Under the pieces are notes generated by a model. It ran no database searches. It was not told the DNA's origin and saw only the letters and a program-made list of their open reading frames with translations. DNA of 64,000 nucleotides, taken from the NCBI RefSeq assembly GCF_004216565.1, contig NZ_SGWV01000011.1:310001-374000 (forward strand), in the 5' to 3' direction. A program made the translations under genes and the position numbers. Source of the DNA: Sphaerotilus mobilis. Lineage in GTDB: Bacteria > Pseudomonadota > Gammaproteobacteria > Burkholderiales > Burkholderiaceae_C. How positions within the stretch are numbered: the first letter of the stretch is position 1; every line of letters begins with the position of its first letter. Below, piece after piece: positions 48,035 through 64,000 of this stretch.

Positions 48035-49381
48035 ATGAGCCAGCACATGAGTCAAATTCTGCCGAGCGACGGTTTCGTCGACGCATCAGTTTCAACCTGG
48101 ACCTGTCCCTTCTGTCCGCTGCTGTGCGACGACGGCCCGACCTGCGCGGTGTCGCGCCAGCGGCTGGCGCTGCTCGATGCGGTGGCCGACCGGCCCGAGG
48201 CCGCCACGCCACGCGTCGCCGGCCAGCCGGTGACGCTGGCCGAGGCGCTGGCGGCCGCGACCACGCTGTTGCGCGACGCAGGCCAGCCGCTGATCGCCGG
48301 CTGGGGCACCGACGTGGCCGGCGCCCGCGCGCTCTACCGGCTGGCCTGTGCGAGCGGCGCCATCAGCGATGCCGGCCCGGACGCCGCCGCCAGCGATGCC
48401 CAGAGCGAGGCCCTGCGAGCGCTTCAGGACCGTGGCGGCTACACCACCACGCTGGCCGAGCTGCGCGAGCGCGCCGAGCTGATCGTCTTCATCGGCAGCT
48501 GGGCACCCGATCGTGCGCCGCGCCTGCTCGAACGTGCCTTGCAAGGCCGCGCCGACCGGCCGCCCCGGCTGGTCCACCTGGGACTGGCGGGTGGCGACGA
48601 CGCGGTGCCCGCTGAGGTCGCGGGCGACGGCTTTTGTGTGCCGGTCGAACGGCGGGTCTTTGCCGTGCCAGACGCCCAGCCAGCCCATCCCGCCAATCTG
48701 GCCGATCTGGCCGATCTGGCCGATCTGGCCCTGTCGCTCAAGCTCGCCATCGACCGCCGCCCCGGTGCCGATCCGATGCTGGCGACGCTGGCCGGCGAGC
48801 TGCTGGCCTCGCCCTATGCGGTGCTGGTCTGGGAGCCCGGCCGGCTCGGGCCCCATGCGGCGCTGGTGATCGAGCGCCTGCAGCAGGTCATCGCCCGCCT
48901 GAACGCGACGACCCGCGCCGCCGCGCTGCCGATCGGCGGGGCGCAGGGCATGTTGACGGCGCAACAGGTCCACGCCTGGCTCAGCGGCCTTCCGCTGCGC
49001 AGCCGGGTCGGGCCGCGTGGCCTTGAACATGACCCGCTGCGCTACGGGCTGGGTCGCTTGCTGGACGACGGCAGCGTCGATGCGCTGGTCTGGACCGGTG
49101 CCTTCCCGGCCATGCCCGCGCCAGACACAGTCTTGCCGCGCCTGCTGCTGGTCTCGGCCGACGTCGCCGCGACGCCCGGTGCCTGCGGTGATGAAGCGGC
49201 CGCCATCGTCATCCCGGTGGCCAGCCCGGGCGTCCAGCACGGCGGCCACCTGTTCCGCACCGACACCGTCGTGCTGATGCCCTTGCACCCGTCACCGACC
49301 GCGCCGATCGGGCTCGCCGGCCTGCCGTCGGTGGCGCGGGTCGTCGGCGACCTGCTGGCCTTGCTGGAGCACGCCCGATGA
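48035..49381 (+). CDS. fhcB: Formyltransferase/hydrolase complex subunit FhcB
   Basis: A 448-residue protein related to the molybdopterin subunit FwdB/FmdB of formylmethanofuran dehydrogenase. The N-terminal cysteine cluster motif is WTCPFCPLLCDDG. Later blocks are IAGWGTDVAGARALYRLA, VFIGSWAPDRAPRLLERA and ASPGVQHGGHLFRTDTVVL. In methylotrophs this subunit supports the complex but is not a dehydrogenase; formate is released hydrolytically by FhcA. Residues LADLADLADLA come from a 9-base repeat at 48692-48727. An in-frame ATG at 48047 is an alternative start. Its stop overlaps fhcA by four bases. Confidence 0.93.
   Translation: MSQHMSQILPSDGFVDASVSTWTCPFCPLLCDDGPTCAVSRQRLALLDAVADRPEAATPRVAGQPVTLAEALAAATTLLRDAGQPLIAGWGTDVAGARALYRLACASGAISDAGPDAAASDAQSEALRALQDRGGYTTTLAELRERAELIVFIGSWAPDRAPRLLERALQGRADRPPRLVHLGLAGGDDAVPAEVAGDGFCVPVERRVFAVPDAQPAHPANLADLADLADLALSLKLAIDRRPGADPMLATLAGELLASPYAVLVWEPGRLGPHAALVIERLQQVIARLNATTRAAALPIGGAQGMLTAQQVHAWLSGLPLRSRVGPRGLEHDPLRYGLGRLLDDGSVDALVWTGAFPAMPAPDTVLPRLLLVSADVAATPGACGDEAAAIVIPVASPGVQHGGHLFRTDTVVLMPLHPSPTAPIGLAGLPSVARVVGDLLALLEHAR
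48692..48727 (+). repeat. Four-copy 9-bp tandem repeat inside fhcB
   Basis: Four consecutive units GCC-RAT-CTG (first GCCAATCTG, then three identical GCCGATCTG) encode Ala-Asn/Asp-Leu repeats, probably extending a helix. The array keeps the frame. Confidence 0.85.
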
Positions 49382-51084: not shown

Positions 51085-52067
51085 GTCCCAGCCTGACCCC
51101 GTTGAACGAAGCCACGCTGGTCGACGGCGCGCTCCACGGCGTGCGCATCGATGCCTCGTTCGCCGAAGCCTTCCCGATGCGGGCGACCCGCCTGATCGTG
51201 ACCGCCCACAACCTCACCTGGGCCCGCCACGCGGCGGTGGCGGCGACCGGCTTTGCGACCTCGGTGATCGCCTGCGGCTGCGAGGCCGGCATCGAACGCG
51301 AGCTGAGCCCCGACGAGACCCCGGACGGCCGGCCCGGTCTCGCCCTGCTGCTGTTTGCGATGAGCAGCAAGGAGCTGGGCAAGCAGATCGAGCGCCGCGT
51401 TGGCCAGTGCGTGCTGACCTGCCCGACCACCGCCATCTACGCCGGCCTGCCGCCCGAAGCCACGCCCGAGCGTGTCGCGCTGGGCCGCAACCTGCGCTTC
51501 TTCGGCGACGGCTGGCAGAGCGGCAAGGTGATCGCCGGCGAGCGCTACTGGCGCGTGCCGGTGATGGACGGCGAGTTCGTCGCGCAGGAGTCGACGCCGA
51601 TGCTCAAGGCCGTTGGCGGCGGCAACCTGCTGCTGCTGGCACGCGACACCGACAGCGCGCTGGCGGCGGCCGAAAGCGCCGTCGCCGCGATGCGTGCGGT
51701 GCCCGGCGTCGTCATGCCCTTCCCGGGCGGCGTGGTGCGCTCGGGCTCCAAGGTGGGCAGCAAATACCCGGCGCTGGGGGCCTCGACCAACGACGCCTTC
51801 TGCCCGACCCTGGTCGGCCTGGTGCGCCACACCGAACTCGATGCCGGCGTGCGCTGCGTGATGGAGATCGTCATCGACGGCCTGACCGAGTCGGCCGTCG
51901 GCGAGGCCATGCGCGTGGGCATGCTCGCGGCCAGCACGCCCGGCATCGGGCCAGGTCTGGCGGGTGGCCTGCTGCGCATCTCGGCGGGCAACTACGGCGG
52001 CAAGCTCGGGCCCTTCCATTTCCACCTGCGCCGGCTGCTCGGCGAACCTGCGGAAGCTCGGTCATGA
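51081..52067 (+). CDS. fhcD: Formylmethanofuran-H4MPT formyltransferase subunit FhcD
   Basis: A 328-residue protein colinear with archaeal Ftr: FPMRATRLIVTAHNLTWARH, VIACGCEAGIERELSPDETPDG, GQCVLTCPTTAIYAG, VMPFPGGVVRSGSKVGSKYP and NYGGKLGPFHFHLRRLL at the end. It moves the formyl group from N5-formyl-H4MPT to methylofuran inside the Fhc complex. Start ATG 51081 overlaps the fhcA stop; the stop overlaps the fhcC start. Confidence 0.95.
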   Translation: MSPSLTPLNEATLVDGALHGVRIDASFAEAFPMRATRLIVTAHNLTWARHAAVAATGFATSVIACGCEAGIERELSPDETPDGRPGLALLLFAMSSKELGKQIERRVGQCVLTCPTTAIYAGLPPEATPERVALGRNLRFFGDGWQSGKVIAGERYWRVPVMDGEFVAQESTPMLKAVGGGNLLLLARDTDSALAAAESAVAAMRAVPGVVMPFPGGVVRSGSKVGSKYPALGASTNDAFCPTLVGLVRHTELDAGVRCVMEIVIDGLTESAVGEAMRVGMLAASTPGIGPGLAGGLLRISAGNYGGKLGPFHFHLRRLLGEPAEARS

Positions 52068-52966
52068 AGGGTCATCGTCTGGACTTGAAGGCCGTGCCGG
52101 CCCTGCGGCTGGACCTGCGCGGCGTGCTGCCGATGGCGCTCGCGGCCTTGTCGCCCGATGAGATCGCCCACCTGCCCGTCGGTCATGGCCGCAGCTTGCA
52201 AGCCCTGGGCGACTGGTTCCGCATCGAGCCCTTCGAAGCCGACGCGCCGACCTTGCACCTGCACGGCGACGCCGCCGCGCTGGCCCGCTGTGACCACATC
52301 GGCGAGGGCATGGGCGGCGGTCTGCTGATGGTGCATGGCGATGCCGGCGACCATGTCGGCAGCGGCATGGGCGGCGGTGAACTGCGTGTGCTCGGCAGTG
52401 CCCGCGACCTGGCCGGCTGCGAGCTGGCCGGCGGCCTGTTGCGCATCGACGGCGACGTCGGCGCGGCCTGTGGCTCGCCACGGCCCGGCCAGCTCGACGG
52501 CATGCGCGGCGGCCTGCTGCTGGTCGGCGGCTCGGCGGGCGAGCGGCTGGCCGACCGGATGCGGCGCGGCACGCTGATCGTCGCCGGCGATGTCGGTGAA
52601 CACGCCGCCTCGCGCCTGGTGGCCGGCACGCTGGTGATCGGCGGCGCGCTGCGCGGCCGTCATGCCGGCTGGGGCCAGCGGCGGGGCAGCGTGATCTGGC
52701 TCGATGCCGATCAGGCCGGGCGCTGGCAGGACTCACCGCCCACCGGCTATGTCGCCGCGCAGGCCGATGCGCCGGTGGCCTGGGCGCTGCTGGCGCGTGA
52801 CCTGCGCCGCCTCGGCGCCGAGGTGGCCGCATCGGCCGATGTCGCGCCTGGCTGGTCCACCCTCGCCGCCCGGCTGGCGGCCTTGCCGTCCTTGCCCGCG
52901 CCGCCCCGTCTGCTGGGCGACATCGGCGTCGACGGCCGGGGTGAATGGCTGCTGCCATCGGGCTGA
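52064..52966 (+). CDS. fhcC: Formyltransferase/hydrolase complex subunit FhcC
   Basis: A 300-residue protein homologous to FwdC, with a right-handed beta-helix of repeated GxxGxGMGGGxLxVxG units: HIGEGMGGGLLMVHGDAGDH, VGSGMGGGELRVLGSA, MRGGLLLVGGSAGERL and MRRGTLIVAGDVGEH. It is the structural subunit that holds the methylofuran-binding FhcA/FhcD parts together. The gene order B-A-D-C with 4-base overlaps at every junction indicates one tightly coupled transcript. Confidence 0.94.
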   Translation: MKGHRLDLKAVPALRLDLRGVLPMALAALSPDEIAHLPVGHGRSLQALGDWFRIEPFEADAPTLHLHGDAAALARCDHIGEGMGGGLLMVHGDAGDHVGSGMGGGELRVLGSARDLAGCELAGGLLRIDGDVGAACGSPRPGQLDGMRGGLLLVGGSAGERLADRMRRGTLIVAGDVGEHAASRLVAGTLVIGGALRGRHAGWGQRRGSVIWLDADQAGRWQDSPPTGYVAAQADAPVAWALLARDLRRLGAEVAASADVAPGWSTLAARLAALPSLPAPPRLLGDIGVDGRGEWLLPSG

Positions 52967-53018
52967 GCGCGCCCTGTCTTTTTCTTTCCCCAACCCCTGG
53001 AACCTTGGAGATTTCCCG

Positions 53019-53561
53019 ATGAGCACTGCCGTGCCGCCCTACACCTTCCACGCCGGCGAGGCGACCGTGCTGGCCGCCGAGGGCCAAGCCACCGACGCGA
53101 TGCCCGAGATCCTGATCGGGCGCGTCGACGGCCCGGTCGGCCAGGCCTTCGCCAACATGCTGGCGCAGAGCAAGGGCCACACCGCGATGTTCGCGATCCG
53201 CGCCTGCAACCAGATGGTCCGCCCGGCCACCATCACCGTGCCCAAGGTGACGCTCAAGGACAGCGCCAACATCGACCTGTTCGGCGGCGTGGTCCAGAGC
53301 GCCACGGCCGACGCGGTGCTGGACTGCGTCATCGAGGGTGTCATCCCCAAGGACCTGGTCGACCAGCTCTGCATCATCAGCCTGGTCTGGATCGACCCGC
53401 GCTGCGCCAAGGACCCGAACCTCGACAAGAAGGACATGTACCGCACCAACTACGAGGCCACCAAGCTGGCGATCCGCCGTGCGCTGCGCAACGAGCCGTC
53501 GATCGACGAGCTGATTGCCAACCGCAGCACGATCCGGCACGACATGGACGACTGGAGCTGA
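53019..53561 (+). CDS. Fae paralogue lacking the catalytic histidine
   Basis: A 180-residue protein with the full-length Fae fold: IGRVDGPVGQAFANMLAQSK, VRPATITVPKVTLKDSANI, FGGVVQSATADAVLDCVIEG, VWIDPRCAKDPNLDKKDMYR and YEATKLAIRRAL. The region matching [12 protein letters not shown] of true Fae reads GQATDAMPEILIG, so the histidine is replaced by methionine (M28). Similar paralogues (Fae2 type) occur in methylotrophs, and their role is not settled. It lies 52 bases after fhcC with a good ribosome-binding site (TTGGAG), so it may be expressed with the Fhc complex. It is unlikely to be an efficient formaldehyde-condensing enzyme. Confidence 0.9.
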   Translation: MSTAVPPYTFHAGEATVLAAEGQATDAMPEILIGRVDGPVGQAFANMLAQSKGHTAMFAIRACNQMVRPATITVPKVTLKDSANIDLFGGVVQSATADAVLDCVIEGVIPKDLVDQLCIISLVWIDPRCAKDPNLDKKDMYRTNYEATKLAIRRALRNEPSIDELIANRSTIRHDMDDWS

Positions 53562-53628: not shown

Positions 53629-54327
53629 ATGAGCCTGCATCCACCTGCACAGGGCCCTGTGCTTGCCCTGTTCGACCTTGACCACACGCTGATCCCCTTC
53701 GACAGCGGCATGGCCTGGACCCGCTTCCTGATCGGACGTGGCCTGCTGCCGGCCGAGGCCGAGCGGCGCTACCTGGGCTACGCCGGCCAGTACGTCGCCG
53801 GCACGCTGGACATCCACGAGATGCACGCCAGCAACCTGGCCCCGCTGCTGCACCACCCACTGGCCGAATTGCGGCGCTGGCAGGGCGCCTTCGAGGTCGA
53901 CATGGCCAGCCGCATCCCGCCGGCCATGCGCGCCCTGGTGCGCAGCCACATCGCGGCCGGCCACCACTGCGCCATCGTCACCGCGACCACCCGGCTGATC
54001 GCCGAACCGCTGGCCCGCCTGTTCGGCGTGCGCCACCTGCTCTGCACCGAAGCCGGCCAGCGCACCGACGCCGACGGCACCGACTGGATCGAACCCCAGA
54101 TCATTGGCGAGCCCTGCTACCGCGAACACAAGATCACCCACGTCGAACGCTGGCTGACCCAGATCGGCGCGCCGTCGCTGGCCGAGGCCGGCCACAGCGT
54201 CTTCTACTCCGACTCGGTCAGCGATCTGCCGCTGCTCGAAGCCGTGCGCGAACCGGTGGCCGTGCGGCCCGATGCGCGCCTGCAGGAGATCGCGCTGGCA
54301 CGCGGCTGGCGGATCGTGGTGGCGTAG
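53629..54327 (+). CDS. HAD-IB family phosphatase (SerB-like)
   Basis: A 232-residue phosphohydrolase with HAD motif I ALFDLDHTLIPFDSG (nucleophile aspartate), motif II CAIVTATTRLIAEP, a lysine in YREHKITHVERWL, and motif IV FYSDSVSDLPLLEAV. This is the HAD subfamily IB pattern of phosphoserine-phosphatase-like and related enzymes. The substrate is unknown. It stands alone after the H4MPT island. Confidence 0.88.
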   Translation: MSLHPPAQGPVLALFDLDHTLIPFDSGMAWTRFLIGRGLLPAEAERRYLGYAGQYVAGTLDIHEMHASNLAPLLHHPLAELRRWQGAFEVDMASRIPPAMRALVRSHIAAGHHCAIVTATTRLIAEPLARLFGVRHLLCTEAGQRTDADGTDWIEPQIIGEPCYREHKITHVERWLTQIGAPSLAEAGHSVFYSDSVSDLPLLEAVREPVAVRPDARLQEIALARGWRIVVA

Positions 54328-54343: not shown

Positions 54344-54718
54344 CTAGGGCAGAGCCCATTCCTCCACCGCCAGGCCGGGCACTCGGTGGAATTCGCGGGC
54401 GTTGTTGGTGATCAGCACGCTGTCTTCGGCCAGGGCATGCGCCGCGATCATCAGGTCCATGCCCCCAATCGGCCGACCGGCTTGCTCCAGGGCCGTGCGA
54501 ACGCTGGCGCAGTGGTGGGTGGCCTCCAACGGCCAGGGATGCAGTTCGAAGCCTGACAGCCACGCGCCCATGTCCTGCTCCGGTGGCACCTGTGGCTGCA
54601 GCCAAAGCGCCGTGCCGATCTGTTCGACCCGCACCTCCTTGGCCTGTAGCCGCAACTTGGCCGGCAGGCGCAGGGCCTGGCTGCGCCCGCTCATGAAGAT
54701 CCTCGCAGTGATGCTCAT
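54344..54718 (-). pseudogene. VapB-VapC in-frame fusion remnant of a toxin-antitoxin pair
   Basis: One reading frame of about 124 residues joins two normally separate proteins. Residues 1-50 are a VapB-type antitoxin (SITARIFMSGRSQALRLPAK, DNA-binding beta-strand). From about residue 52 the sequence is the last part of a VapC PIN-domain toxin (GRPIGGMDLMIAAHALAED, then VLITNNAREFHRVPGLAVEE). The toxin's first 70-80 residues are absent, including the initial aspartate of the active site, so nuclease activity is not expected. The most likely origin is an internal deletion that fused the genes in frame. It could still act as an autoregulatory DNA-binding protein. An ATG 21 bases upstream is also in frame. 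Confidence 0.75.
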
Positions 54719-54797
54719 GTGGCGACCTTGGTGTGACATGACGACGTCATATGACTCGGCTCCCGGCTGAACACCAACACCGACCGCCCACGCCCCT

Positions 54798-55352
54798 TCA
54801 GTTCTCCAACCTCAGGATTTCCAGCTGCTCCGGCACCGTCTCGAAGGTGCCCGCTCCGGCGGGCATCTGCATCAGGGGCTGGCCGTCGGGGTCGAGCAGC
54901 CAGACGCTGGGGTAGACCAGCAGGCGGGCGCGCTGGTCGCCGATGGCGCGCTGGAAGTCGGCGTAGGGCAGGCGGTGGCGGTCGCTGCGCAGGATCATGC
55001 GCGGGGCCGTGACGTCCAGCGCGCTGCGCAGGTCGACCAGGAGGTATTTCTCGCGGAAATGCGGCAGCAGCGCGTTGGTGTTGGTGGCCAGGAAGGCCTC
55101 GTAGCGGCGGCAGTAGGGGCAGTCGCTGGCGCCCAGGTAAACGTAGAGCGACTTGCGTTGGGCGCGCGCCTGGGCGAGTGCCGGGCGCAGGTCGAATTCG
55201 AGCTTGTTGCCGTCTTGCTGGACCGGCTGGACGACGATGGCGTCATAGGCCGCCGGCAAGGCGGCGTGCGCTGGCAGGCCGATGGCCACGAGCATGGCGG
55301 CCAAGGTGCTGACGAGGATGGCGCGCAGGCTGCGCTGCGGTCGGGCGCGCAT
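54798..55352 (-). CDS. Thioredoxin-like periplasmic protein of the quinoprotein cluster
   Basis: A 184-residue exported protein: a signal peptide (LRAILVSTLAAMLVAIGLPA, cleavage near AHA), then a thioredoxin-type fold with YVYLGASDCPYCRRYEAFLA, i.e. a CPYC redox motif as in glutaredoxins. YPSVWLLDPDGQPLMQMPAG, with the cis-proline region, follows. The start overlaps the stop of the SoxYZ-like gene. It probably reduces or isomerises disulfides in periplasmic partners of the methanol dehydrogenase system. The partner is inferred. Confidence 0.83.
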   Translation of the reverse strand: MRARPQRSLRAILVSTLAAMLVAIGLPAHAALPAAYDAIVVQPVQQDGNKLEFDLRPALAQARAQRKSLYVYLGASDCPYCRRYEAFLATNTNALLPHFREKYLLVDLRSALDVTAPRMILRSDRHRLPYADFQRAIGDQRARLLVYPSVWLLDPDGQPLMQMPAGAGTFETVPEQLEILRLEN

Positions 55353-56254
55353 CACGCCACCCCGGCGCGGTCGAGGTCAAGCTCGCCGCGGGTGCGCAGC
55401 TCCTTGCTGTCCTCGACCTCGGCGCTCAGCAGGCCGACCTGTCCTTGGGCTGGCACGGCCAGCTGGAAGCGCCAGGTCGGGTTCTCGCTGACCGAGAAGT
55501 CCATGTCGGCGTCAAACACCGGCCGCTCGCCCAGCCGGACCCGGATGCTGCGCACGAAGTGTGGCGGGATGAACATCACCGTCACCTGGTTGAGCTCGAA
55601 GCCGGTGTCGTTGGGGTGCAGCACGGTCACGTCGACGGCGGTGTTGCCAGCCTCGCGTGTCAGGCCGTCCGGCAGGCGCAGCAAGGTCTTGCCGATCAGG
55701 TGCGGCGACTCGCGGTTGGGCGGTGCGCTGCAGCCGCCGGAGACCTTCACGTAGCGCGAGTCCATGTGCAGCGAGCCGTCGTCGAGCTGCTGGATGACGC
55801 GGATGTGGCTGTATTCGTCGACCCGCAGCCGGGTCTCGAAGTGCGCCGGACCGAGCGCCTCGCCCAGCGTCAGCGTGGCGGCCACCGGCGACGGGTTCTT
55901 GTCGACCAGCAGCGTCATCCGGCGCACACGCCGGCCGTCGCTGTTGGCCAGCTTGGAGACGATGCGCACCGGCACCGAGGCGCCGTAGGCCGCCCGCAGC
56001 GGCACGATCAGCTGGACCTGGCTGGCCGCGCCGGAAGCGATCGTCTGGGTGCCGAACAGGCGCTCGCGCAGCGTTTCCCACTGCGGCGAGCTGTCGGCAT
56101 GGCCCACGTTGGTGGGCAGACCGCCGATGGCGCCCAGCGCCGGGCCGGCGACGCTGGCCACGCCGAGCGCCAGGCCTTGCGCCAGCCGACGGCGGCGGGC
56201 GGGATCGGCGGGAGTCGTTGTCGTCAGTGGCTCGAACGGGCGGTGTGCGGTCAT
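55352..56254 (-). CDS. Quinoprotein dehydrogenase-associated SoxYZ-like carrier
   Basis: A 300-residue exported protein with a twin-arginine-like leader (RRRRLAQGLALGVASVAGPA). The N-terminal half is SoxY-like (VQLIVPLRAAYGASVPVRIV, RYVKVSGGCSAPPN) and the C-terminal half SoxZ-like (ADMDFSVSENPTWRFQLAVP). The cysteine in GGCSAPP is not at a GGCG C-terminal swinging arm as in true SoxY. The family is found next to PQQ-dependent dehydrogenases, where it is thought to help in electron relay or maturation. AAGGA precedes the ATG. A diverged paralogue lies at 59604-60509. Confidence 0.87.
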   Translation of the reverse strand: MTAHRPFEPLTTTTPADPARRRRLAQGLALGVASVAGPALGAIGGLPTNVGHADSSPQWETLRERLFGTQTIASGAASQVQLIVPLRAAYGASVPVRIVSKLANSDGRRVRRMTLLVDKNPSPVAATLTLGEALGPAHFETRLRVDEYSHIRVIQQLDDGSLHMDSRYVKVSGGCSAPPNRESPHLIGKTLLRLPDGLTREAGNTAVDVTVLHPNDTGFELNQVTVMFIPPHFVRSIRVRLGERPVFDADMDFSVSENPTWRFQLAVPAQGQVGLLSAEVEDSKELRTRGELDLDRAGVA

Positions 56255-56274
56255 GGTGTGTCCTTCGGGCCGAC

Positions 56275-57285
56275 TCATCGACCGAGCATGAGCTGTCGCT
56301 CCTGCCGCAGGTAGACGATGGAGGCGTTGCGCCGGTGGGTGGTGTCGTGGCGTGACCAGCCGGCGAACTCGCTCAGGGTGCTGGCCTCGGCGACGTCGCT
56401 GAGCGCCGTGCCCTTGCGCAGCAGGTCGGCGGTGCGGGCTTCGAGCTGGTCGAGGTAGCGGCGCTCCTGGGCGATCACGTCCAGCGCGTCGCCGGCCGGG
56501 CCGTGGCCGGGCAGGGCACGGTGTGGACCCAGCTGGACCAGCGCCGCCAGGGCGCGCCGCCAGCCGGCCAGGTCGGCGTCCTGGACGTCGGGGATGGTCT
56601 GCGCGTCCAGCAGCGCGCCGGTCACCAGGCTGGCGCTGCGGGCGTCCCACAGGGCGGTGTCGCCGGGGCTGGCGGCCAGGTCGCCGCTGATCGGGGCGAG
56701 CAGGCGCAGTGGCCGGCCGATGTCGGGCAGCGGGGCCAGGCTGGCGTCGGCATCGCGGGCGTCAAACAGGTGATCCGGGAGCGGCACGCGGGTGCCGGTC
56801 ATCTCGTCCTCGCCGAGCTGGCGCTGAAGCGACTTCAGGCAGGTCCCGCAGCGCGCGCCCATCAGGCGGGCGGCGTCGCGGTGCATCCAGACCGGCACGT
56901 CGGCGTCCTGGAAGGCGGTCGCGCCAAAGATGAATTCCTGCATCGCGTGGGTCAGCAGCAGGCCACGCACCGGCCGGTCGGTGAGCTGGCGCACGCTCGC
57001 CAGCAAGGCCTCGCCATCGCGCCGGGACACGCCCGCGTTGACCACCAGCGCGCCCCGGTCGCCGACCAGCAGCGCGGCATTGCCGATGCGGCCGCGGTTG
57101 ACGGGCTCGACATCCCCGGCATGGCCGCGCAGCAGCCAGACGCCGTCGGCGACGGCCTGCGGTGGCGGGCGTTCGGCGGGCGAGACCGCCAGCGGAGCGC
57201 CCTCGTCCAGCGCCGCACACGCGGCCAGCCAGGGCAGCCCGAGCAGGGCCAGCAGCTGGCGACGGCGTGTCGGCGCGTCGGCCAC
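56275..57285 (-). CDS. Quinoprotein relay system metallo-hydrolase-like lipoprotein with degenerate metal site
   Basis: The 336-residue protein has a GTG start. The N-terminus LLALLGLPWLAACAALDEG contains a lipobox (LAAC), so it is probably membrane-anchored in the periplasm. The rest follows the metallo-beta-lactamase fold (GNAALLVGDRGALVVNAG, then ALPGHGPAGDALDVIAQ). The usual THxHxDH metal motif reads THAMQEF: only the first histidine is kept. The final GHG histidine remains. Family members occur with SoxYZ-like carriers and PQQ dehydrogenases. A catalytic hydrolase role is unlikely here. It starts one base before the stop of the SRPBCC gene. Confidence 0.8.
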   Translation of the reverse strand: MADAPTRRRQLLALLGLPWLAACAALDEGAPLAVSPAERPPPQAVADGVWLLRGHAGDVEPVNRGRIGNAALLVGDRGALVVNAGVSRRDGEALLASVRQLTDRPVRGLLLTHAMQEFIFGATAFQDADVPVWMHRDAARLMGARCGTCLKSLQRQLGEDEMTGTRVPLPDHLFDARDADASLAPLPDIGRPLRLLAPISGDLAASPGDTALWDARSASLVTGALLDAQTIPDVQDADLAGWRRALAALVQLGPHRALPGHGPAGDALDVIAQERRYLDQLEARTADLLRKGTALSDVAEASTLSEFAGWSRHDTTHRRNASIVYLRQERQLMLGR

Positions 57286-57852
57286 TCAGCGGCCCTCGGC
57301 CAGGGTCTTGAGCTGCTTCAGGCCGGCCTGGTAGACGGCGGTGATGGCAGCCACGGCGGCCTCGTCGTTCTGGTCCGGCGGCGGGTCGTTGTTGGGGTAG
57401 CCACGGTAGAAGGCCCCGCGCCACTCGACGCTGGACTTGCCGCCACCCGCATCGCTGACCTGGATCTGCGAGGTGTAGTTGGTGACCGGCAGCGCGCCGC
57501 CGTCCTTGGCGCGGTAGGCGTAGCGCATCTGGCCGTCGTCGTAGCGCTCCAGCGTCTCGATCAGGCCGCCGCCGCCCTTGAGCGTCAGCGTGCGCACCGA
57601 GCCGACCGTGTTGCCCTGGTCGGCCGGACTGCTGGCGACGGCCGGGTGCCAGTCCTTGAGCGCGTCGAAGTTGCGGATCAGGCCCCAGACCTTGGCCGCT
57701 GGCGCGTCGATCTCGACCTTCTCGGTCACCTTCTGGCGGGTCGGGCCGTGGGCCATCGCGGTGCCGGACCATGCCAGGCTGGCGGCCAGCAGGCCAGCCA
57801 GCATCAGCGGGCGACGCTTCAGGCGACGGGGTGGGCACGGACGTGCGGGCAT
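57286..57852 (-). CDS. Exported SRPBCC (START-like) family protein
   Basis: A 188-residue protein with a signal peptide (LMLAGLLAASLAWSGTAMAH). An SRPBCC ligand-binding fold follows: VTEKVEIDAPAAKVWGLIRNF, ALKDWHPAVASSPA, VRTLTLKGGGGLIETLERYD and the C-terminal helix AAITAVYQAGLKQLKTLAE. The family binds hydrophobic or aromatic ligands. Its task in the quinoprotein cluster is unknown, but periplasmic SRPBCC genes recur near PQQ-dependent alcohol dehydrogenases. GGAG precedes the ATG. It is followed directly by the metallo-hydrolase-like gene. Confidence 0.85.
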   Translation of the reverse strand: MPARPCPPRRLKRRPLMLAGLLAASLAWSGTAMAHGPTRQKVTEKVEIDAPAAKVWGLIRNFDALKDWHPAVASSPADQGNTVGSVRTLTLKGGGGLIETLERYDDGQMRYAYRAKDGGALPVTNYTSQIQVSDAGGGKSSVEWRGAFYRGYPNNDPPPDQNDEAAVAAITAVYQAGLKQLKTLAEGR

Positions 57853-57892
57853 GTCGGGGTCTCCTTCGGGGGTGGGCAATCTTGGGTGGTGT

Positions 57893-58921
57893 TCAGTCCG
57901 GCAACTGGCCGATGAAGCGCCCGAAACCGCGGCTGTTCGAGCCGGTCGGCACGGTCGACAGCACGCGGCCGCTGCTGGCATCGAGCACGACCAGGTTGTC
58001 GTCCATCCAGTTGACGACGTGGACCTGATCACCGTGCGCGGCGATGCCTTCGGGGTAGGCGAAACCATCGAGCGTGCGCAGCGGTGCGAGCGTCTCGGCG
58101 TCGATCACGCTGACGCTGTCGGCGCGCTGGTTGGTGACGTAGATCAGCCGGCCGTCACGGGTCAGCGCCGCGCCGTAGGGTGCCTTGCCCACGGCCACAC
58201 GCGCCAGCGGCTGGCTGGTCTTGAGGTCGAACACGCTCAGGTCGTCGCTGTAGACGTTCAGCACGAACAGCCGCTCGCGGGCCGCGTCCAGCATCAGCGC
58301 GAAGGGATGGGCGCCGGTCGGCCAGCGGGCGATGACCTCGCCGCGATCGAGGTCCAGCACCGCGACGGTGTCGTCGTCGCGTTCGGCGACGAAGACCCGG
58401 CGGGCGTCCGGATGGGCCAGCACGCCGGCCGGGTAGCGACCGGTCGGGATGCTGCGCAGCGGCGCGGCATCGGGCCGGTCGATGGCCTCGGGGTCAAGCA
58501 CCAGCAGGCGGTTGCGCGACCAGTCGGCGGCCAGCACGCGCCGGCCATCGGGCGTGACGTCCAGCCCCATCGGCCCGCCACCTGCGGTGCCGGCGGCGAG
58601 CCGGCCCAGCACCCGCTGGCTGCGCATGTCGATGACCGAGACCGTGCCCGCTTCCGGATGACCGACATAGGCCCGGGCGGTCGCGCTGGCGGCCACCACG
58701 CCGGCCGGTGACTTGTCGACCTTCAGCGTGGCGATGACACGCCGGCTGGCGAGGTCGACCACGCTGACATCGTGGCTGCCCTGGTTGGTGATGTAGGCAA
58801 ACGGCGCGGCGACGGCCGGCAGGCCCATCGACGCCGCCCCGGCCAGCGAGGCCGCCAGCAACACGGCACGGACGCTGCATGTGCGCGCCCGGCGCGTTCC
58901 GCGTGTCACAGAGTGCGCCAT
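57893..58921 (-). CDS. Exported YVTN-type beta-propeller protein
   Basis: A 342-residue protein with a signal peptide (VRAVLLAASLAGAASMGLPA) and about seven repeats of the 40-residue YVTN blade: FAYITNQGSHDVSVVDLASR, RAYVGHPEAGTVSVIDMRSQ, RLFVLNVYSDDLSVFDLK, LIYVTNQRADSVSVIDAET. Such propellers occur beside PQQ alcohol dehydrogenases in quinoprotein clusters and may bind partner proteins or a redox cofactor. The role is not proven. It is divergent from the DUF gene at 58952, with a 30-base gap between the starts. Confidence 0.87.
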   Translation of the reverse strand: MAHSVTRGTRRARTCSVRAVLLAASLAGAASMGLPAVAAPFAYITNQGSHDVSVVDLASRRVIATLKVDKSPAGVVAASATARAYVGHPEAGTVSVIDMRSQRVLGRLAAGTAGGGPMGLDVTPDGRRVLAADWSRNRLLVLDPEAIDRPDAAPLRSIPTGRYPAGVLAHPDARRVFVAERDDDTVAVLDLDRGEVIARWPTGAHPFALMLDAARERLFVLNVYSDDLSVFDLKTSQPLARVAVGKAPYGAALTRDGRLIYVTNQRADSVSVIDAETLAPLRTLDGFAYPEGIAAHGDQVHVVNWMDDNLVVLDASSGRVLSTVPTGSNSRGFGRFIGQLPD

Positions 58922-58951
58922 CCTGGTCCCGTCACGAGCCGAAAGAACACC

Positions 58952-59530
58952 ATGTCCGACAAACGACCCCTCAGGCTCCGCCTGGCCACGCTGGTCCTGC
59001 TGGCCGGCTTGAACGCGGGTGTGGCAGCGGCCGAAGCCACCGCTGTCGTCACGCCAGCCGCACCTGCCACGCTCGCCTTCATCGGCTTCGAAGTCATCGA
59101 CGAACAGCCCGATGCCAGCCGCTGGCCGGCCTTGCGCGGGCGGGCCGAACGCATCGGCCTGCAGATGGCCGAGGGGCTGCAGGCCCGTGGGCTCTACGAG
59201 GTGCGTGACCTGGCGCCGGCGGAGGACGCGCTGCAGCGCACCCGCGATGCGAACGAGTTCCTGCACCGCTGCAACGCCTGCCTGAGCGAGATCGGCGCGG
59301 CGGCCGGTGCCCGGCTGGTGGGGGTGGGCTGGGTGCAGCGGGTCAGCAACCTGATCCTCAACATCAACCTGGGGATCTGGGACGTCAGTGATCCGAACGC
59401 AGACCGCATGGTGCTGACCAAGTCGGTCGACATCCGCGGCGACAACGACGAGTCCTGGCGGCGGGGCGTCGGCTTCATGCTGCGCGACATGGTCGAGCGG
59501 CGCGAGCGCCAACCCCGCTACGGCCTGTGA
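58952..59530 (+). CDS. Exported DUF2380/DUF3280-like protein
   Basis: A 192-residue protein with a signal peptide (LATLVLLAGLNAGVAAAEA). It then shows the pattern of the DUF2380/DUF3280 group: TLAFIGFEVIDEQPDASRWP, MAEGLQARGLYEVRDLAP, CNACLSEIGAAAGARLVGVG, LILNINLGIWDVSDPNADRM. These small periplasmic proteins occur in methanol/alcohol dehydrogenase clusters with no known function. It is the only plus-strand gene in the quinoprotein block and divergent from the YVTN gene. Confidence 0.78.
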   Translation: MSDKRPLRLRLATLVLLAGLNAGVAAAEATAVVTPAAPATLAFIGFEVIDEQPDASRWPALRGRAERIGLQMAEGLQARGLYEVRDLAPAEDALQRTRDANEFLHRCNACLSEIGAAAGARLVGVGWVQRVSNLILNINLGIWDVSDPNADRMVLTKSVDIRGDNDESWRRGVGFMLRDMVERRERQPRYGL

Positions 59531-59603
59531 AGCCGACCGTGCAGGCGCCCGCTGCGGCAGCGGCGGCGTGACAGGGTGTGGCATCGCGCGCCTGCGGTGC
59601 CAC

Positions 59604-60509
59604 TCAGCGCGGCGTGGCCAGCGCGGCCAGCGGGGTCGAGCCCTGCCAGCTCAGGCCCTGGGTGTCGCTGACCTCGGCACGCAGCGGTGCCGTGCCGCGT
59701 GGCACGAAGACCAGCCGCAGCGTCGGGTTCTCGCTGATCGCGAAGTCCAGGTCGGCGGTGAGCAGCAAGCGGTCGCCTTGCCAGAGCCGCGCGCTGCGCA
59801 GGTAGTGCGCGGGGGTGAAGTGGCGCGTCAGCTGGTCCATCGCCATGCCCGAGTGGTTGGGGTGGCTGACCATCCACTGCAGCGCCAGCGGCTGGCCGTC
59901 GACGGCCGGCTCGGACGCGCGGAACTGCATGCGGCCCATGGCCGCGCGCATCGCCGCCTCGTCGCCACCGGGCGGGGCCGAACAGCCGCCGGATGACTTG
60001 ACGTGCCGCAGCGCCATGCGCAGCGTGCCATCGGCCGATTCGGCGATGACGCGCACGAAGCTGTAGTCGTCGACCCGCACGCGGGTCTCGATCTGCGGCA
60101 GCACGCCATCGGCCGGCAGGTCGAACACCGCCGCGATCGGCGAGGGGTTGTTGTCGATCACCAGCGTGATGCGGCGGATGCCCGGTGCACCGGCGCTGGC
60201 CAGGGCGCTGCGCCAGGCCACTGGCACGAAGGCCGGGTCGTCGGCGCGGCGCGGCGCGCTCACGCTCAGCTCAGAGGCGCCGCCCGCTGCGGCCGGCTCG
60301 ATGGTGCGGATCGGCCGGTCACCCCACAGCGAGGCCCGCACCTGCCGCCAGCGCGGGCTGGCCTCGGGGTTGTCGGCGTCGCGGTAGATGCCGCTGGCGG
60401 GTTCGGCGGCCCTGAGCGGTCCGGCTGCAGCCAGCGCAAGGCCACCCAGTCCGCCGAGCAGGAGGTGACGTCGGTCGGTGGCTGATGGCAAGGAAGGCAA
60501 GGACGGCAT
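59604..60509 (-). CDS. Second quinoprotein dehydrogenase-associated SoxYZ-like carrier
   Basis: A 301-residue exported protein, paralogous to the one at 55352-56254. It shares the order leader, SoxY-like half (KSSGGCSAPPGGDEAA) and SoxZ-like half (TADLDFAISENPTLRLVFVP), and the NNPSPIAA and SENPT blocks are the same. The leader (RRHLLLGGLGGLALAAAGPL) is twin-arginine-like. The divergence is high, so the duplication is old. Two such carriers in one cluster suggest two relay partners or a heteromer. Confidence 0.87.
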   Translation of the reverse strand: MPSLPSLPSATDRRHLLLGGLGGLALAAAGPLRAAEPASGIYRDADNPEASPRWRQVRASLWGDRPIRTIEPAAAGGASELSVSAPRRADDPAFVPVAWRSALASAGAPGIRRITLVIDNNPSPIAAVFDLPADGVLPQIETRVRVDDYSFVRVIAESADGTLRMALRHVKSSGGCSAPPGGDEAAMRAAMGRMQFRASEPAVDGQPLALQWMVSHPNHSGMAMDQLTRHFTPAHYLRSARLWQGDRLLLTADLDFAISENPTLRLVFVPRGTAPLRAEVSDTQGLSWQGSTPLAALATPR

Positions 60510-60572
60510 GGCTGCAGCTTGGGCTGGGGCGGGTGTTGGGTCGCTCAGCGGCTCGGCAGGCTGCCGGGTCGT

Positions 60573-60977
60573 TCAGCGAATCACGTAGCAAGCCTTCTTG
60601 GACTTGGTCAGGAGCGCCCGGTAGCGCCGGATCTCGTCTTGCAGCTTCTCGACGTCGCGGATGTAGCTGCCGCGTTCACCGCCGATGGAGTTGGCGTTCA
60701 GCGCCGTGGACATCTCGATGTAGTCCTCGAACTTCAGCTCGGTGGCCATCTGGTCGAAGGCGCAGGCGCACTTGTTGACCATCTCGTAGTGACCGCCCGG
60801 GTGGTCGCGCAAGCAGGCCTGGACCCAGTTGAACCGTTCGGACGTCGGGTATTCGGACAGCTCGGCCGACACGGGTGCGGCGAACAGCGCCGCCAGGGTC
60901 ATGGCCGCGACCGGCAGCCAGGTCGACGGCCGGGGCGAGCGCTGGGGGAGGGCAATGCGCATGGGGTGGGAGGGCAT
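60573..60977 (-). CDS. Conserved hypothetical exported protein of the methanol dehydrogenase cluster
   Basis: The protein has 134 residues with a signal peptide (WLPVAAMTLAALFAAPVSA) and a function not recognised. The mature part of about 95 residues is helical with cysteines in VQACLRDHPG, KCACAFDQ and KKACYVIR. The spacing of the cysteines suggests two disulfides rather than heme or Fe-S binding. It lies between the second SoxYZ-like gene and another unknown, all on the minus strand downstream of xoxJ. A run of GTCGTGGTC repeats at about 60990-61012 lies just before it. Confidence 0.7.
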   Translation of the reverse strand: MPSHPMRIALPQRSPRPSTWLPVAAMTLAALFAAPVSAELSEYPTSERFNWVQACLRDHPGGHYEMVNKCACAFDQMATELKFEDYIEMSTALNANSIGGERGSYIRDVEKLQDEIRRYRALLTKSKKACYVIR

Positions 60978-61022
60978 GGTGGGTGAGGTCGTCGTGGTCG
61001 TCGTGGTCGTGGCAGGCGATGG

Positions 61023-61751
61023 TCAACCCGGCGCCGGCCAGGCGGGCGAGCGGGCGCCGTCGATCAGCAGTTCCTCGTCCAGCACGGCGGGTGCGCCATC
61101 GGCGCCGGCCACGCCGCTGCGGATCGAGACGATGGTGCCGGGCACAGCGTCTGACAGCACAAAGACGTACTGCTTGGCCGCGAGCTGGCTGAAGCGGTCC
61201 TTGTTGGGATCGTCCGCATAGGGGCGGATCACGATCTGCCGGGCCGCCACCATCTTGCCCCGGTAGCTGACCTGCAGGTCACTGACCGTCGCAGCCTCGT
61301 AGAGCGCCATGCGCAGGCGCTTGCGGAAGTAGCTGGCCGAGCCCTTGGTGCGGCGGTTCATCTCGCGGATGTCGCGCTCCAGGAAGAACAGCGTCACCGG
61401 GTTGCCCTCGACCTGCTCGACCTCGGGCAGGGCCAGCCGGCGCGCGCCGGTCAGGAACTCGCCACTGGCCTTGCAGCAGCGGCCCTTGGCCAGCGGGCTC
61501 AGCGTCAGCGTCACGCGGTCGTCGAAGGCGATCTCGTCCTTGAGCGTGCTGGTGAGGTGGAACTGGTAGCCGATCTTCATCGGCGGCTTGATGCCGGCGA
61601 ATTGCGGCGACATCAGCAGCAGGCGCTCGGCCTGCGAGAAGTCCTGCGCGTTGCCCGAAGCCGCGACGGGCGCCTGTGACCAGGCCAGACCCGCCAGCGC
61701 GAACGAGGTCGACAGCAGCGCAAACAGGCGGAACATCGTCGTGCGGGTCAT
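61023..61751 (-). CDS. Conserved hypothetical exported protein downstream of xoxJ
   Basis: A 242-residue protein with a signal peptide (MFRLFALLSTSFALAGLAWS). No domain is recognised. The mature part is mostly beta strands with PPMKIGYQFHLTSTLKDEIA, KGRCCKASGEFLTG, NRRTKGSASYFRKRLRMALY and VIRPYADDPNKDRF. Its ATG overlaps the stop of xoxJ by four bases, so it is translated with xoxJ. The tight coupling suggests a role in methanol dehydrogenase maturation or electron transfer. Confidence 0.75.
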   Translation of the reverse strand: MTRTTMFRLFALLSTSFALAGLAWSQAPVAASGNAQDFSQAERLLLMSPQFAGIKPPMKIGYQFHLTSTLKDEIAFDDRVTLTLSPLAKGRCCKASGEFLTGARRLALPEVEQVEGNPVTLFFLERDIREMNRRTKGSASYFRKRLRMALYEAATVSDLQVSYRGKMVAARQIVIRPYADDPNKDRFSQLAAKQYVFVLSDAVPGTIVSIRSGVAGADGAPAVLDEELLIDGARSPAWPAPG

Positions 61752-62629
61752 GGCAGCAGCGTGCCTCCTTCGGCGACCAGCGGCACGCGGAAGTCGCGCA
61801 GGATGGCGGTGATCTCGGCGCGCTGCGTCTCGATCACCTTCTCGACCTGCTGCTTCCATTCGCGCTCGCCGTGGCGCACGCCCATCGCCATCTCGAAGTC
61901 GAAGCGCACGCCGGGTTCGGACTGCATCGGCAGCACCGTCAGCCGGGGCTCTGCGACCCGCTTGGCGAAGAAGCCCGCGATCGGTCCCCAGACGATCGCC
62001 ACATCGACCTTGCCGGCGCTCAGTTCCTTCTCCAGCAGCTCGCCGGGGTACTGGGCCGGGTCGGGGCTCATCATCTGGTAGGGCACGCCTTGGTCGACCA
62101 GGCCGTGCTTGTTGAGCCAGGCGGCCGCCGGGGTGCGGTCGTACAGGCCGATGCGGACCTTCTGGCGGCGCTCGGGCGGCAGGGCCAGGAAGTCCTGCAC
62201 CGACTTCACGTCGTCCAGCCCGCGTCCTTGTGCATAGACCATGGCGTAGGTCGAGCGGTAGTAGGGCTTGGTGACGGAGACCTGGTCGAAGCCGACCGGC
62301 ACGCCCATCACGATGTCGCAGCGGAAGTCCTCGCCGGGCAGCTTGTAGCGCAGCGTGTTGCGGATGAAGGCCAGCCGGGCGGGGAAGGAGTAGTACTGCA
62401 CCGGCAGGCCCATGGCCTTGCCGAACAGGTCGGCCAGCCGGTTCTCGATGCCCTCGGCGGCGACGTTGGAGAAGGGCAGGTTGTTCGGGTCCTGACAGAC
62501 CTTCAGGGCCTTGCGCTCGGGCTCGTCCTGGGCTTGCGCGAGGGCGGGCAGGGCGACGGCGGCCAGGGCGACCAGCCCGGCGGCCAGGCGGCTCAGGGAC
62601 GCGGTGCGGGCCGGGCGGGTGTCGTTCAT
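61748..62629 (-). CDS. xoxJ: XoxJ periplasmic binding-protein-like accessory factor
   Basis: A 293-residue exported protein (leader LAAGLVALAAVALPALAQA) of the family-3 solute-binding fold typical of MxaJ/XoxJ: LKVCQDPNNLPFSNVAAEGI at the N-terminus, GLPVQYYSFPARLAFIRNTL, VMGVPVGFDQVSVTKPYYRS and VDVAIVWGPIAGFFAKR. XoxJ is thought to help assemble or activate the lanthanide methanol dehydrogenase. The ATG overlaps the xoxG stop by four bases. Confidence 0.93.
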   Translation of the reverse strand: MNDTRPARTASLSRLAAGLVALAAVALPALAQAQDEPERKALKVCQDPNNLPFSNVAAEGIENRLADLFGKAMGLPVQYYSFPARLAFIRNTLRYKLPGEDFRCDIVMGVPVGFDQVSVTKPYYRSTYAMVYAQGRGLDDVKSVQDFLALPPERRQKVRIGLYDRTPAAAWLNKHGLVDQGVPYQMMSPDPAQYPGELLEKELSAGKVDVAIVWGPIAGFFAKRVAEPRLTVLPMQSEPGVRFDFEMAMGVRHGEREWKQQVEKVIETQRAEITAILRDFRVPLVAEGGTLLP

Positions 62630-63045
62630 TTGGCTTCTTCCACCTTGGAACGGGTGATGGCGCCGTCAGAGCGGCCCTTGAGGTAGGCGTAGAGCTGGTC
62701 GATGTTGTCCATCACCACCTTGCTGGTGCCGAAGCTCTGCATGCCCTTCTCGAGCCGGCCGTCGCGCACGGTCTTGATGAACTCTTCCTTGGTGAGCACC
62801 TTCAGGCTGGCGAGCAGCGAGGGGCCCACCATGCCTTCCTGGTTGGCGCCGTGGCAGCGGTCACAGGCAGCCTGACGCCAGGCGCGGAAGCCCTTCATCG
62901 TGTTGGCATCGACCTTGTAGCCGTCAACGACGGTGTAGAGCGGCGTCTCGACCTTGTCCTGCGCCGATGCGGCCGGGCTGGTGACGAGGGTGGCCAGCGC
63001 GGTCAGTGCGAGGGCAAGGAGGGGAGCGGCTTTTCCAGTTCTCAT
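62626..63045 (-). CDS. xoxG: XoxG cytochrome c, electron acceptor of methanol dehydrogenase
   Basis: A 139-residue exported class-I cytochrome c with a leader (LLALALTALATLVTSPAASA), heme-binding ACDRCHGAN (C61, C64, H65) and the probable distal ligand M102 in EKGMQSFG. XoxG accepts electrons from PQQ in XoxF. Its size and its place between xoxF and xoxJ agree with this role. The distance to xoxF is 86 bases and holds a strong hairpin. Confidence 0.93.
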   Translation of the reverse strand: MRTGKAAPLLALALTALATLVTSPAASAQDKVETPLYTVVDGYKVDANTMKGFRAWRQAACDRCHGANQEGMVGPSLLASLKVLTKEEFIKTVRDGRLEKGMQSFGTSKVVMDNIDQLYAYLKGRSDGAITRSKVEEAK

Positions 63046-63131: not shown

Positions 63132-64000
63132 TCAGTTGGGCAGCGCGAACACGGTCAGCGAGCCGCCGAGTTCGGTGTACTGATTCAGCTCACGGTAGCC
63201 ACCCACGGCACCCAGGCCGTCGGTGTCCTTCTCGAGACCTGCGGCCATGCCGATGCCGGCCCAGCCACCGATGCCAGAGAACACGCCCAGGTACTGCTTG
63301 CCCTTGTGCTCATAGGTGAACACGTTGCCGATGATCCCGGAGGGCGTCTTGAACTTGAACAACTCCTTGTTGATGTCGTTCTTGTCGACGCACTTCAGGT
63401 AGCCCTCGAGCGTGCCGTAGCAGGACAGACCGCCAGCGGTGTTGAGCGAGCCGGACCAGACCGAGAACTTCTCGGCCTTGGACTGCACGATCTTGCCGGT
63501 GCCGGCATCCCAGGTGATGTAGTTGCCCATGCCACCGTGGCTGCCCGGGGCCGGGAACATCGACAGCGTCGCGCCGACGTACGGCTGGCCGGCGGTGTAC
63601 TCGACCTTGAACGGCTCGTAGTCCATGCAGACGTGGTTGGTCGGCACGTAGAACAGCTTGGTCTCGGGGTCGTAGGACGCCGGTTGCTGGTCCTTGGAAC
63701 CCAGCGCCGCCGGGCAGATGCCCTTGGTGTTGACGTCAGGTCCGTTCTGCGCGGTCGAGTACTTGGAGACGACCTGCGGACGGCCGCTCTTCATGTCGAC
63801 GTGCGTGGCCCAGTTCACCTTCGGGTCGTACTTCTCGGCCACCAGCAGCGCACCGCTGACGCGGTCCAGGGTGTAGGCAAAGCCGTTGCGGTCGAAGTGC
63901 ACCAGTGCCTTGGTCAGCTTGCCCTTGACGTTGATGTCCGCCAGGATCATCTCGTTGATGCCGTCGAAGTCCCACTCGTCGTACGGGGTCATCTGGTAGA
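63132..64000 (-). CDS. xoxF: Methanol dehydrogenase XoxF, C-terminal part (5' end outside window)
   Basis: The reading frame is open to the last base of the window, so only about 289 of the usual 600 residues are present. They are the second half of the eight-bladed PQQ propeller: [79 protein letters not shown] and [17 protein letters not shown]. The close xoxG and xoxJ genes and the [13 protein letters not shown] block identify XoxF rather than MxaF. The extra aspartate that marks lanthanide use lies just upstream of the window and cannot be checked. The enzyme oxidises methanol to formaldehyde or formate in the periplasm. Confidence 0.93.

Follow-up and report, generated by a model that had tools for sequence, protein, structure and literature searches.

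A gene block with conserved cysteines beside xoxF in Sphaerotilus mobilis and its possible carrier system

Results

Layout of the locus

The stretch of 64,000 nucleotides from Sphaerotilus mobilis analysed here (contig NZ_SGWV01000011.1, positions 310,001 to 374,000; hereafter the 64-kb window, within which all positions are counted) ends inside the gene of the methanol dehydrogenase XoxF and carries downstream of it a gene block (54798..63045) that most likely encodes a periplasmic cysteine-carrier system serving XoxF. On the minus strand, to which all gene coordinates refer unless marked otherwise, the genes follow one another in transcription order as xoxF-xoxG-xoxJ-u2-u1-SoxYZ-1-propeller-SRPBCC-MBL-C-SoxYZ-2-thioredoxin, and the gene of a DUF3280 protein sits between SoxYZ-1 and the propeller on the strand opposite to the rest of the block. 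All block genes that an earlier note had named from the letters of this DNA are open frames at the place and in the order it gave, so that its gene set and order were borne out, although its remark that many of them overlap by 1-4 bases was overstated. With start codons picked by eye from a list of alternatives, overlaps occur at only three of nine junctions (4, 4 and 1 bases); at one further junction the genes abut, at four they are 20-63 bases apart, and the remaining gap, of 682 bases, contains the divergent DUF3280 gene. The block proteins are putatively exported, as read by eye from their N-termini, and a pattern search for twin-arginine (Tat) and lipobox signals matched in every family without discriminating among them.

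The window holds the 3′ part of xoxF (63132..63998), an open reading frame (ORF) with its 3′ end at 63132 that runs beyond the window end. The full gene, present in the window's own assembly (locus L034), encodes both a vicinal CC, which we take to be a vicinal disulfide, and WDFDG, whose second Asp we take as the mark of lanthanide-type enzymes; its match to TIGR03075, the family of alcohol dehydrogenases dependent on pyrroloquinoline quinone (PQQ), scores 719 bits (G000:C5:373264-374877, G000 being the window genome). It is followed by xoxG (62626..63045), named by eye and neighbourhood as a cytochrome c with a CxxCH motif, and by xoxJ (61748..62629), a periplasmic binding protein that exceeds the cut-off of the XoxJ/MoxJ-like family TIGR03871 (283 versus 212 bits).

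The SRPBCC protein (57286..57852; PF10604, 117 bits) has a homologue encoded within an mxa operon of Methylocystis (tblastn, 41% identity over 82%, E 2e-19; phmmer, E 5.6e-35). The gene for that homologue lies directly after MxaA, vWA, MxaK and vWA genes, which by gene order is presumably the place of mxaD, and its record reads only 'SRPBCC family protein'. The window protein is thus probably, by sequence similarity, a homologue of MxaD, a protein whose hallmark is the stimulation of electron transfer from the dehydrogenase to cytochrome c. The claim that nothing in classical methanol dehydrogenase biology needs this gene set did not stand in full: the SRPBCC gene is homologous to an mxa-operon gene, and part of the set therefore belongs to that biology, and PMC7391723 lists an MxaD homologue, together with orf6 and orf7, among the genes needed by M. 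extorquens for XoxF1-dependent methanol growth with lanthanum.

Fused SoxYZ carriers

SoxYZ-1 (Y1; 59604..60509, cysteine 176) and SoxYZ-2 (Y2; 55352..56254, cysteine 175) are fused SoxY-SoxZ-like carriers that score 225.6 and 212.6 bits against TIGR04557, 'quinoprotein dehydrogenase-associated SoxYZ-like carrier' (cut-off 140 bits). Neither reaches the cut-offs of true SoxY and SoxZ (TIGR04488, 125 bits; TIGR04490, 76 bits), the respective scores being 56/40 bits for Y1 and 67/46 bits for Y2. The GGCSAPP motif comes after the SoxY half and before the SoxZ half; in an alignment with the solved SoxY structures 4uwq_B and 2ox5_Y, its cysteine falls on their terminal GGC cysteine. The single kept cysteine to which the earlier note had drawn attention in this motif proved to be invariant, in 67/67 Y1 relatives and 31/31 Y2 relatives.

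These relatives come from a locus survey in which both carriers served as query and the best 80 of 583 confirmed candidates gave 77 distinct named loci (L058-L134). The survey provides examples rather than the full range, with Y2-like loci ranking first and Y2 as the leading query, and its gene labels are best phmmer matches of 50 bits or more to window or reference genes, not curated annotation. Some contigs occur under both unnamed and named loci (L050 = L065, L039 = L075 and L138 = L074). A quick tree of 63 rows was built from every second Y1 or Y2 row of at least 200 residues in the named loci, 12 rows from genome-survey loci and the window pair. In it, Y2 formed one clade (SH-aLRT 100), as did the third carrier type (Y3), and Y1 is not shown to be a single clade because two changes are needed. 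Of the named Y2 rows in the tree, those with a family rank belong to Sphaerotilaceae, Comamonadaceae or Burkholderiaceae; a Y2 locus that is not in the tree (L123) carries the label of a Vitreoscilla metagenome-assembled genome (MAG).

The duplication of the carrier is a further element that is new here, and Y2 travels with two neighbours. The gene of the thioredoxin-like protein, which in the window occupies 54798..55352 and encodes a CPYC motif (PF13899, 31.3 bits, cut-off 27), has its stop within 900 bases after the Y2 stop in 28/31 Y2 loci; it lies 2 kb further on in L063, and L082 and L086 end at a contig edge. MBL-C, described below, precedes Y2 in 27/31 loci; L076 and L084 begin inside or just before Y2, and no MBL-C match was found within 10 kb upstream in L066 and L080, two Methylibium MAGs with Y2 and thioredoxin. 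The Y2 module is also found apart from xoxF: a Rhizobacter contig (L065 = L050) has it next to fhc/fae-like genes, and in Piscinibacter sakaiensis it shares a contig (G053:C3, which has sequence in common with L074) with u1, at a distance of ~17 kb, and with xoxF, at ~21 kb.

Two nameless families that track XoxF

Between xoxJ and SoxYZ-1 lie u2 (61023..61751), with a vicinal CC, and u1 (60573..60977), a small protein with four cysteines that are all kept in 53/53 relatives. For neither did searches of Pfam, NCBIfam and PDB sequences return a convincing relative, the matches being weak and scattered. An AlphaFold2 (AF2) model of u2, built from the window row and 28 of 45 u2 relatives, reached a mean predicted local distance difference test score (pLDDT) of 88.3. 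Its top structure matches were mostly proteins of the RseB/MucB, LolA and LppX types, the best to MucB (VIA Z 8.2, root-mean-square deviation (rmsd) 4.3, 132 residues) being borderline, and a LolA/RseB-like fold is therefore suggested weakly. The CC of u2 is kept in 32/44 relatives; it is missing in Nevskia, Paraburkholderia and some others, L090, L091, L092, L096 and L134 among them.

Among the 77 named loci u1 was present in 53, u2 in 45 and xoxF in 46, mostly in the same order. Since u1, u2 and xoxF recur in carrier loci of other genomes, the association of the block is not due to chance. Genomes of the Sphaerotilaceae, Variovorax and Thauera types, among others, repeat the order xoxF-xoxG-xoxJ-u2-u1-[MBL-A]-SoxYZ-1, and in Nevskia relatives u2 is placed before xoxG. 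Either xoxF or xoxJ is held by 45/53 u1 loci; two of the eight without them in the available stretch (L069 and L102) are short contigs. In a second survey, which covered 150 genomes from the family of the window genome (141 genera, one genome for each species), u1 occurred in 18/150 genomes, in one copy each and 1.4 to 3.7 kb from a TIGR03075 match (17 over the cut-off, one a fragment), and u2 occurred in 16/150, all within the u1 set. The two are families new here, nameless in the libraries searched and tracking XoxF. A short version of the locus in L141 (G013) reads xoxF-xoxG-xoxJ-u1-carrier-thioredoxin, with no u2 or MBL match in its stretch.

Carriers go with PQQ dehydrogenases rather than SoxB

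In the same 150 genomes, a PQQ alcohol dehydrogenase over the TIGR03075 cut-off was found in 27/28 genomes with a fused carrier versus 31/122 others (Fisher p 1.3e-12; here and below these tests take genomes as independent, which is not fully true). The 28 are 29 genomes over the carrier cut-off minus G055, whose match is a tandem soxY-soxZ with a stop inside, and the one without an over-cut-off dehydrogenase is G101, scored so because its matches are fragments (best 433 bits). SoxB was associated neither with the carriers (16/28 versus 68/122, p 1) nor with u1 (12/18 versus 72/132, p 0.45). The link to PQQ enzymes that the earlier note had supposed is therefore upheld for the carriers.

An MBL-fold branch with a lost zinc motif and a CxxC

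The protein encoded upstream of Y2, MBL-C (56275..57285), has a lipobox-like start, a metallo-β-lactamase (MBL) fold (PF00753, 27.1 bits, cut-off 22.7) and a CxxC at residues 146-149. Its AF2 model, computed from the window row and 32 of 50 MBL-C relatives, has a pLDDT of 90.7 and superimposes on 8d2z_A with a VIA Z of 31.5 over 275 residues (rmsd 2.4). The zinc motif HxHxDH, which reads HAMQEF in the window, is kept in 0/49 relatives that cover the region, while the CxxC is kept in 49/49. Of the single ligands, the first His is retained by 33 of these relatives, the second His by 2, the Asp by 8 and the final His by 4. A classical zinc hydrolase was accordingly rejected, as no relative keeps the full motif. 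Of the earlier description as a hydrolase-like lipoprotein, the MBL fold and the lipobox-like start thus stand and an intact zinc motif does not.

Two sister branches bear NCBIfam names. One scored member of MBL-A reaches 371 bits against TIGR04559 (cut-off 280), and HxHxDH is intact in 42/42 covered MBL-A rows. MBL-B (TIGR04558, 374 bits) pairs with the third carrier clade and lies on contig C2 in the window genome. The window protein falls below both cut-offs, with 160 bits against TIGR04559 and 149 bits against TIGR04558 (cut-off 300). MBL-C is, judged from its sequence, a third branch of the family besides MBL-A and MBL-B, and an MBL branch that has a CxxC and no zinc motif is new here. 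Despite the zinc-hydrolase name of their family, five aligned TIGR04558-like proteins read NxHxDY for HxHxDH. NxHxDY is also the reading in L035 (9601-11465, contig C2 of the window genome), where the TIGR04558 hydrolase stands beside a third fused carrier with a GGGCTV arm. In a MAG (L059, 8968-9960) the MBL-C gene is broken into two frames.

MBL-C was found in 14/150 genomes, all among the 18 u1 genomes (Fisher p 1.7e-16); 15 passed E 1e-60, and G116 was dropped since its 207 bits are a level that MBL-A genes also reach there. The MBL-C gene lies more than 1 million bases off the xox locus in G060 and G081 and on another contig in G074 and G101. MBL-A over its cut-off was present in 9/150 genomes and in neither the window genome (G000) nor its congener (G058). 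For u1, u2 and the CxxC-bearing MBL branch, no published description was found in the open-licence literature searched via their neighbours' names, which makes this a weak absence.

Remaining block genes and neighbours

The propeller gene (about 57893..58921) encodes a YVTN/YncE-type beta-propeller with TIGR02276 repeats that scores 132 bits against TIGR03866, the PQQ-dependent catabolism-associated propeller family, under its cut-off of 287. The divergent DUF3280 protein (58952..59530, plus strand; PF11684, 131 bits) carries a CxxC. Beyond the block, fhcB-, fhcA-, fhcD-, fhcC- and fae-like genes of the methanofuran/methanopterin formaldehyde route, recognised by eye, occupy 48035-53561, and homologues of such genes were seen in 4/25 loci checked (L037, L050, L053 and L065). 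A gene for a HAD-like phosphatase (53629-54327, plus strand) also adjoins the fae-like genes in L037, L050/L065 (one contig) and L053. At 54344-54739 (minus strand) a 131-residue ORF has an AbrB/VapB-type start and a PIN/VapC-type end by eye, and is possibly a shrunken toxin-antitoxin remnant.

Cysteines across the block

Conserved cysteine motifs occur in most of the block proteins. In addition to those of the carriers, u1, u2 and MBL-C, the CxxC of the thioredoxin-like protein is kept in 29/29 relatives and that of DUF3280 in 15/15, whereas the relatives of the propeller and the SRPBCC protein have no cysteine column at or above 40%. In the window proteins, all cysteines outside presumed signal or lipobox positions (by eye) are the conserved ones. 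This conservation makes thiol chemistry the best common theme, and together with the invariant carrier cysteine it favours the suggestion, made earlier, of a covalent carrier or redox relay.

Discussion

The block as a whole is best explained, tentatively and at somewhat less than an even chance, as an accessory operon of the XoxF methanol dehydrogenase with a cysteine-carrier system. XoxG, XoxJ, the probable MxaD homologue, u2 and u1 would be the partners of XoxF, and the two fused SoxYZ proteins, the MBL-fold protein that lacks the zinc motif and the thioredoxin-like protein would form the carrier system. At XoxF or close to it, the single arm cysteine of each carrier may bind a small thiol-reactive compound, for which a sulfur species is the likeliest and an aldehyde the second choice, such that the PQQ and the disulfide site of XoxF would be kept working. 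In many relatives, a SoxH-type MBL-A with an intact zinc motif stands beside the carrier and could unload it by hydrolysis. In the window genus, in which MBL-A was not found, the carriers would probably be unloaded by reduction through thioredoxin, and we propose MBL-C as a non-hydrolytic docking or holding partner there. The data fit both published ideas, namely thiosulfate protection and disulfide formation.

Several observations weigh against this explanation. Five loci (L099, L100, L121, L131 and L133) have u1, Y1, MBL-A and MBL-C, and one (L128) has u1, Y1 and u2, with no xoxF or xoxJ in the stretch, which counts against a strict tie to XoxF. Conversely, the XoxF clusters of G092 (xoxF-G-J-u1) and G119 (xoxF-G-J-u2-u1-propeller-SRPBCC) lack a carrier in the stretch covered, and their genomes contain no fused carrier over the cut-off; the carrier is therefore not required for XoxF. 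No thioredoxin was found in 25/50 MBL-C loci (two of them cut at a contig end), and MBL-A and MBL-C occur together in 30 loci and also in Azoarcus; a reductive branch would therefore be no clean switch. SoxB shows a weak, non-significant excess in MBL-C genomes (11/14 versus 73/136, p 0.09). In the model of MBL-C, C146 and C149 lie within a long helix (136-157), unlike the thioredoxin motif with its place at a helix N-terminus. This speaks against a site of the thioredoxin type and weakened MBL-C as a candidate redox partner of that kind; a metal-binding, covalent or intermolecular role of the CxxC would be as likely as a disulfide switch. Lastly, PMC12997753 reports that disruption of the P. 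putida relatives had minimal effects, in tests done without rare earths, and that P. aeruginosa lacks these genes though its ExaA has the disulfide.

Of the other readings, the maturation of disulfide bonds is unlikely. Thioredoxin, DUF3280, u1, u2 and the carriers would here be the links of a thiol-disulfide chain through which XoxF gains its vicinal disulfide, or has it repaired, while being assembled. The CxxC, CC and four-cysteine motifs of u1, u2, thioredoxin, DUF3280 and MBL-C are what such a chain would contain, XoxF does carry a vicinal CC, and PMC12997753 suggests this role for the P. putida relatives. The same paper notes that enzymes with this disulfide exist in bacteria without the genes. 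The SoxYZ arm cysteine, moreover, is single and not part of a CxxC, the CxxC of MBL-C is placed mid-helix in the model, and u2 has no CC in 12/44 relatives. Among open-licence papers we found none joining XoxF with the vicinal disulfide.

Less probable is an aldehyde carrier, in which formaldehyde would bind the carrier cysteine as a hemithioacetal, be oxidised by the quinoprotein to a thioester and be released by the MBL-fold hydrolase as formate, as a periplasmic, protein-bound counterpart of glutathione-dependent formaldehyde oxidation. Such chemistry would explain why the carriers accompany PQQ alcohol dehydrogenases rather than SoxB; the intact MBL-A motif (42/42 covered rows) would supply the hydrolase, and the Y2 module has fhc/fae-like genes as neighbours in the window, in the congener locus L037 and on the Rhizobacter contig (L050 = L065). 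These genes are, however, present in only 4/25 loci checked, one of which (L053) is without Y2; the window genus has no over-cut-off MBL-A, and its MBL-C has no zinc motif. XoxF1 of M. extorquens is also reported to yield formaldehyde and not formate (PMC6414531). A broader version has a similarly slim chance: a periplasmic, protein-bound counterpart of the glutathione system around XoxF, in which duplicated carriers would bind the aldehyde, or a sulfur by-product, of methanol oxidation on a cysteine, with a hydrolytic SoxH-type branch and a thioredoxin branch, and in which the CxxC of a metal-free MBL protein would replace the zinc site for docking or transfer.

Delivery of lanthanide or PQQ to XoxF by u1, u2 and the carriers is comparably doubtful. 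Both u1 and u2 track XoxF, and the modelled fold of u2 suggests a LolA/RseB-like protein, a fold that carries ligands in other proteins. That fold match is borderline, no metal-binding motif was identified in these proteins, and cysteines are poor lanthanide ligands. A part of the carriers in ordinary Sox thiosulfate oxidation was rejected as very improbable: homology to SoxY and SoxZ and the presence of SoxB and a soxY-soxZ-like tandem on contig C3 of the window genome speak for it, but the fused carriers score too low for true SoxY or SoxZ, show no dependence on SoxB in the 150 genomes and are sited with XoxF, and PMC11237559 argues against such a role for these fusions.

As a methanol dehydrogenase, XoxF is widespread among methylotrophs, and this locus offers accessory candidates for it that can be tested: two nameless families that track XoxF, a conserved MBL protein with a CxxC and no zinc motif that is annotated as a hydrolase in an Azoarcus record, and a second copy of the carrier that comes with a thioredoxin. 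Should loading of the carrier cysteine during methanol oxidation be demonstrated, one could test directly why a carrier of the sulfur-oxidation type occurs beside alcohol dehydrogenases, which is a puzzle.

Comparison with known systems

Overall, the block represents a carrier system already known to accompany quinoproteins, here in a form expanded chiefly in Burkholderiales; for three of its parts no published description was found, whereas most of its helper genes are established companions of such dehydrogenases. NCBIfam already has families with quinoprotein-associated names for the carriers, the related hydrolases and XoxJ, and the core association of SoxYZ, SoxH and xoxF is already known, as it is described in PMC11237559 and PMC12997753. 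The former describes SoxYZ fusions with soxH nearby, S4 together with xoxF and formate dehydrogenase and S2 together with a PQQ alcohol dehydrogenase, and speculates that SoxYZ fusions protect methanol dehydrogenase from thiosulfate. The latter discusses roles in disulfide formation or PQQ protection for the relatives in P. putida and M. extorquens, with a co-transcribed thioredoxin-like gene.

The P. putida ped genes (PP_2666/PP_2677/PP_2678) and META1p1703-1705 of M. extorquens resemble the window in having a carrier and a SoxH-like hydrolase gene beside a PQQ dehydrogenase and, in M. extorquens, a thioredoxin-like gene; the window differs by a second carrier and by the presence of u1, u2 and MBL-C, and its block contains no intact SoxH-like hydrolase. 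With the mxa operon the block shares the homologous SRPBCC gene seen in Methylocystis, here placed in a xox block without the other mxa accessory genes of that operon. A close layout is on the plasmid of Azoarcus sp. KH32C (NC_020548), which reads xoxF-xoxG-xoxJ-u2-u1-MBL-A-SoxYZ-MBL-C with SRPBCC and YncE genes nearby, but has a single carrier, includes MBL-A and has no thioredoxin that we found; its record calls u1 and u2 'hypothetical protein' and MBL-C 'MBL fold metallo-hydrolase'. In Ruegeria sp. AD91A, u1, u2, MBL-A and a carrier lie near xoxF5, beside glutathione-type formaldehyde genes. MBL-C shares the MBL fold and the position beside SoxYZ-like carriers with the SoxH-like zinc metallohydrolases 2 and 1 (TIGR04559 and TIGR04558), from which it is set apart by scores under both cut-offs, the loss of the zinc motif and the invariant CxxC. 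The TIGR04557 carrier is probably the SoxYZ-S4 of PMC11237559, the two being equated by gene context and not by comparing sequences. The window carriers share with this system the SoxY-SoxZ fusion, the GGC cysteine and the place beside xoxF and a SoxH-like gene. The window differs from that system in its two diverged copies within one operon, and its Y2 belongs to a separate clade that goes with thioredoxin and MBL-C.

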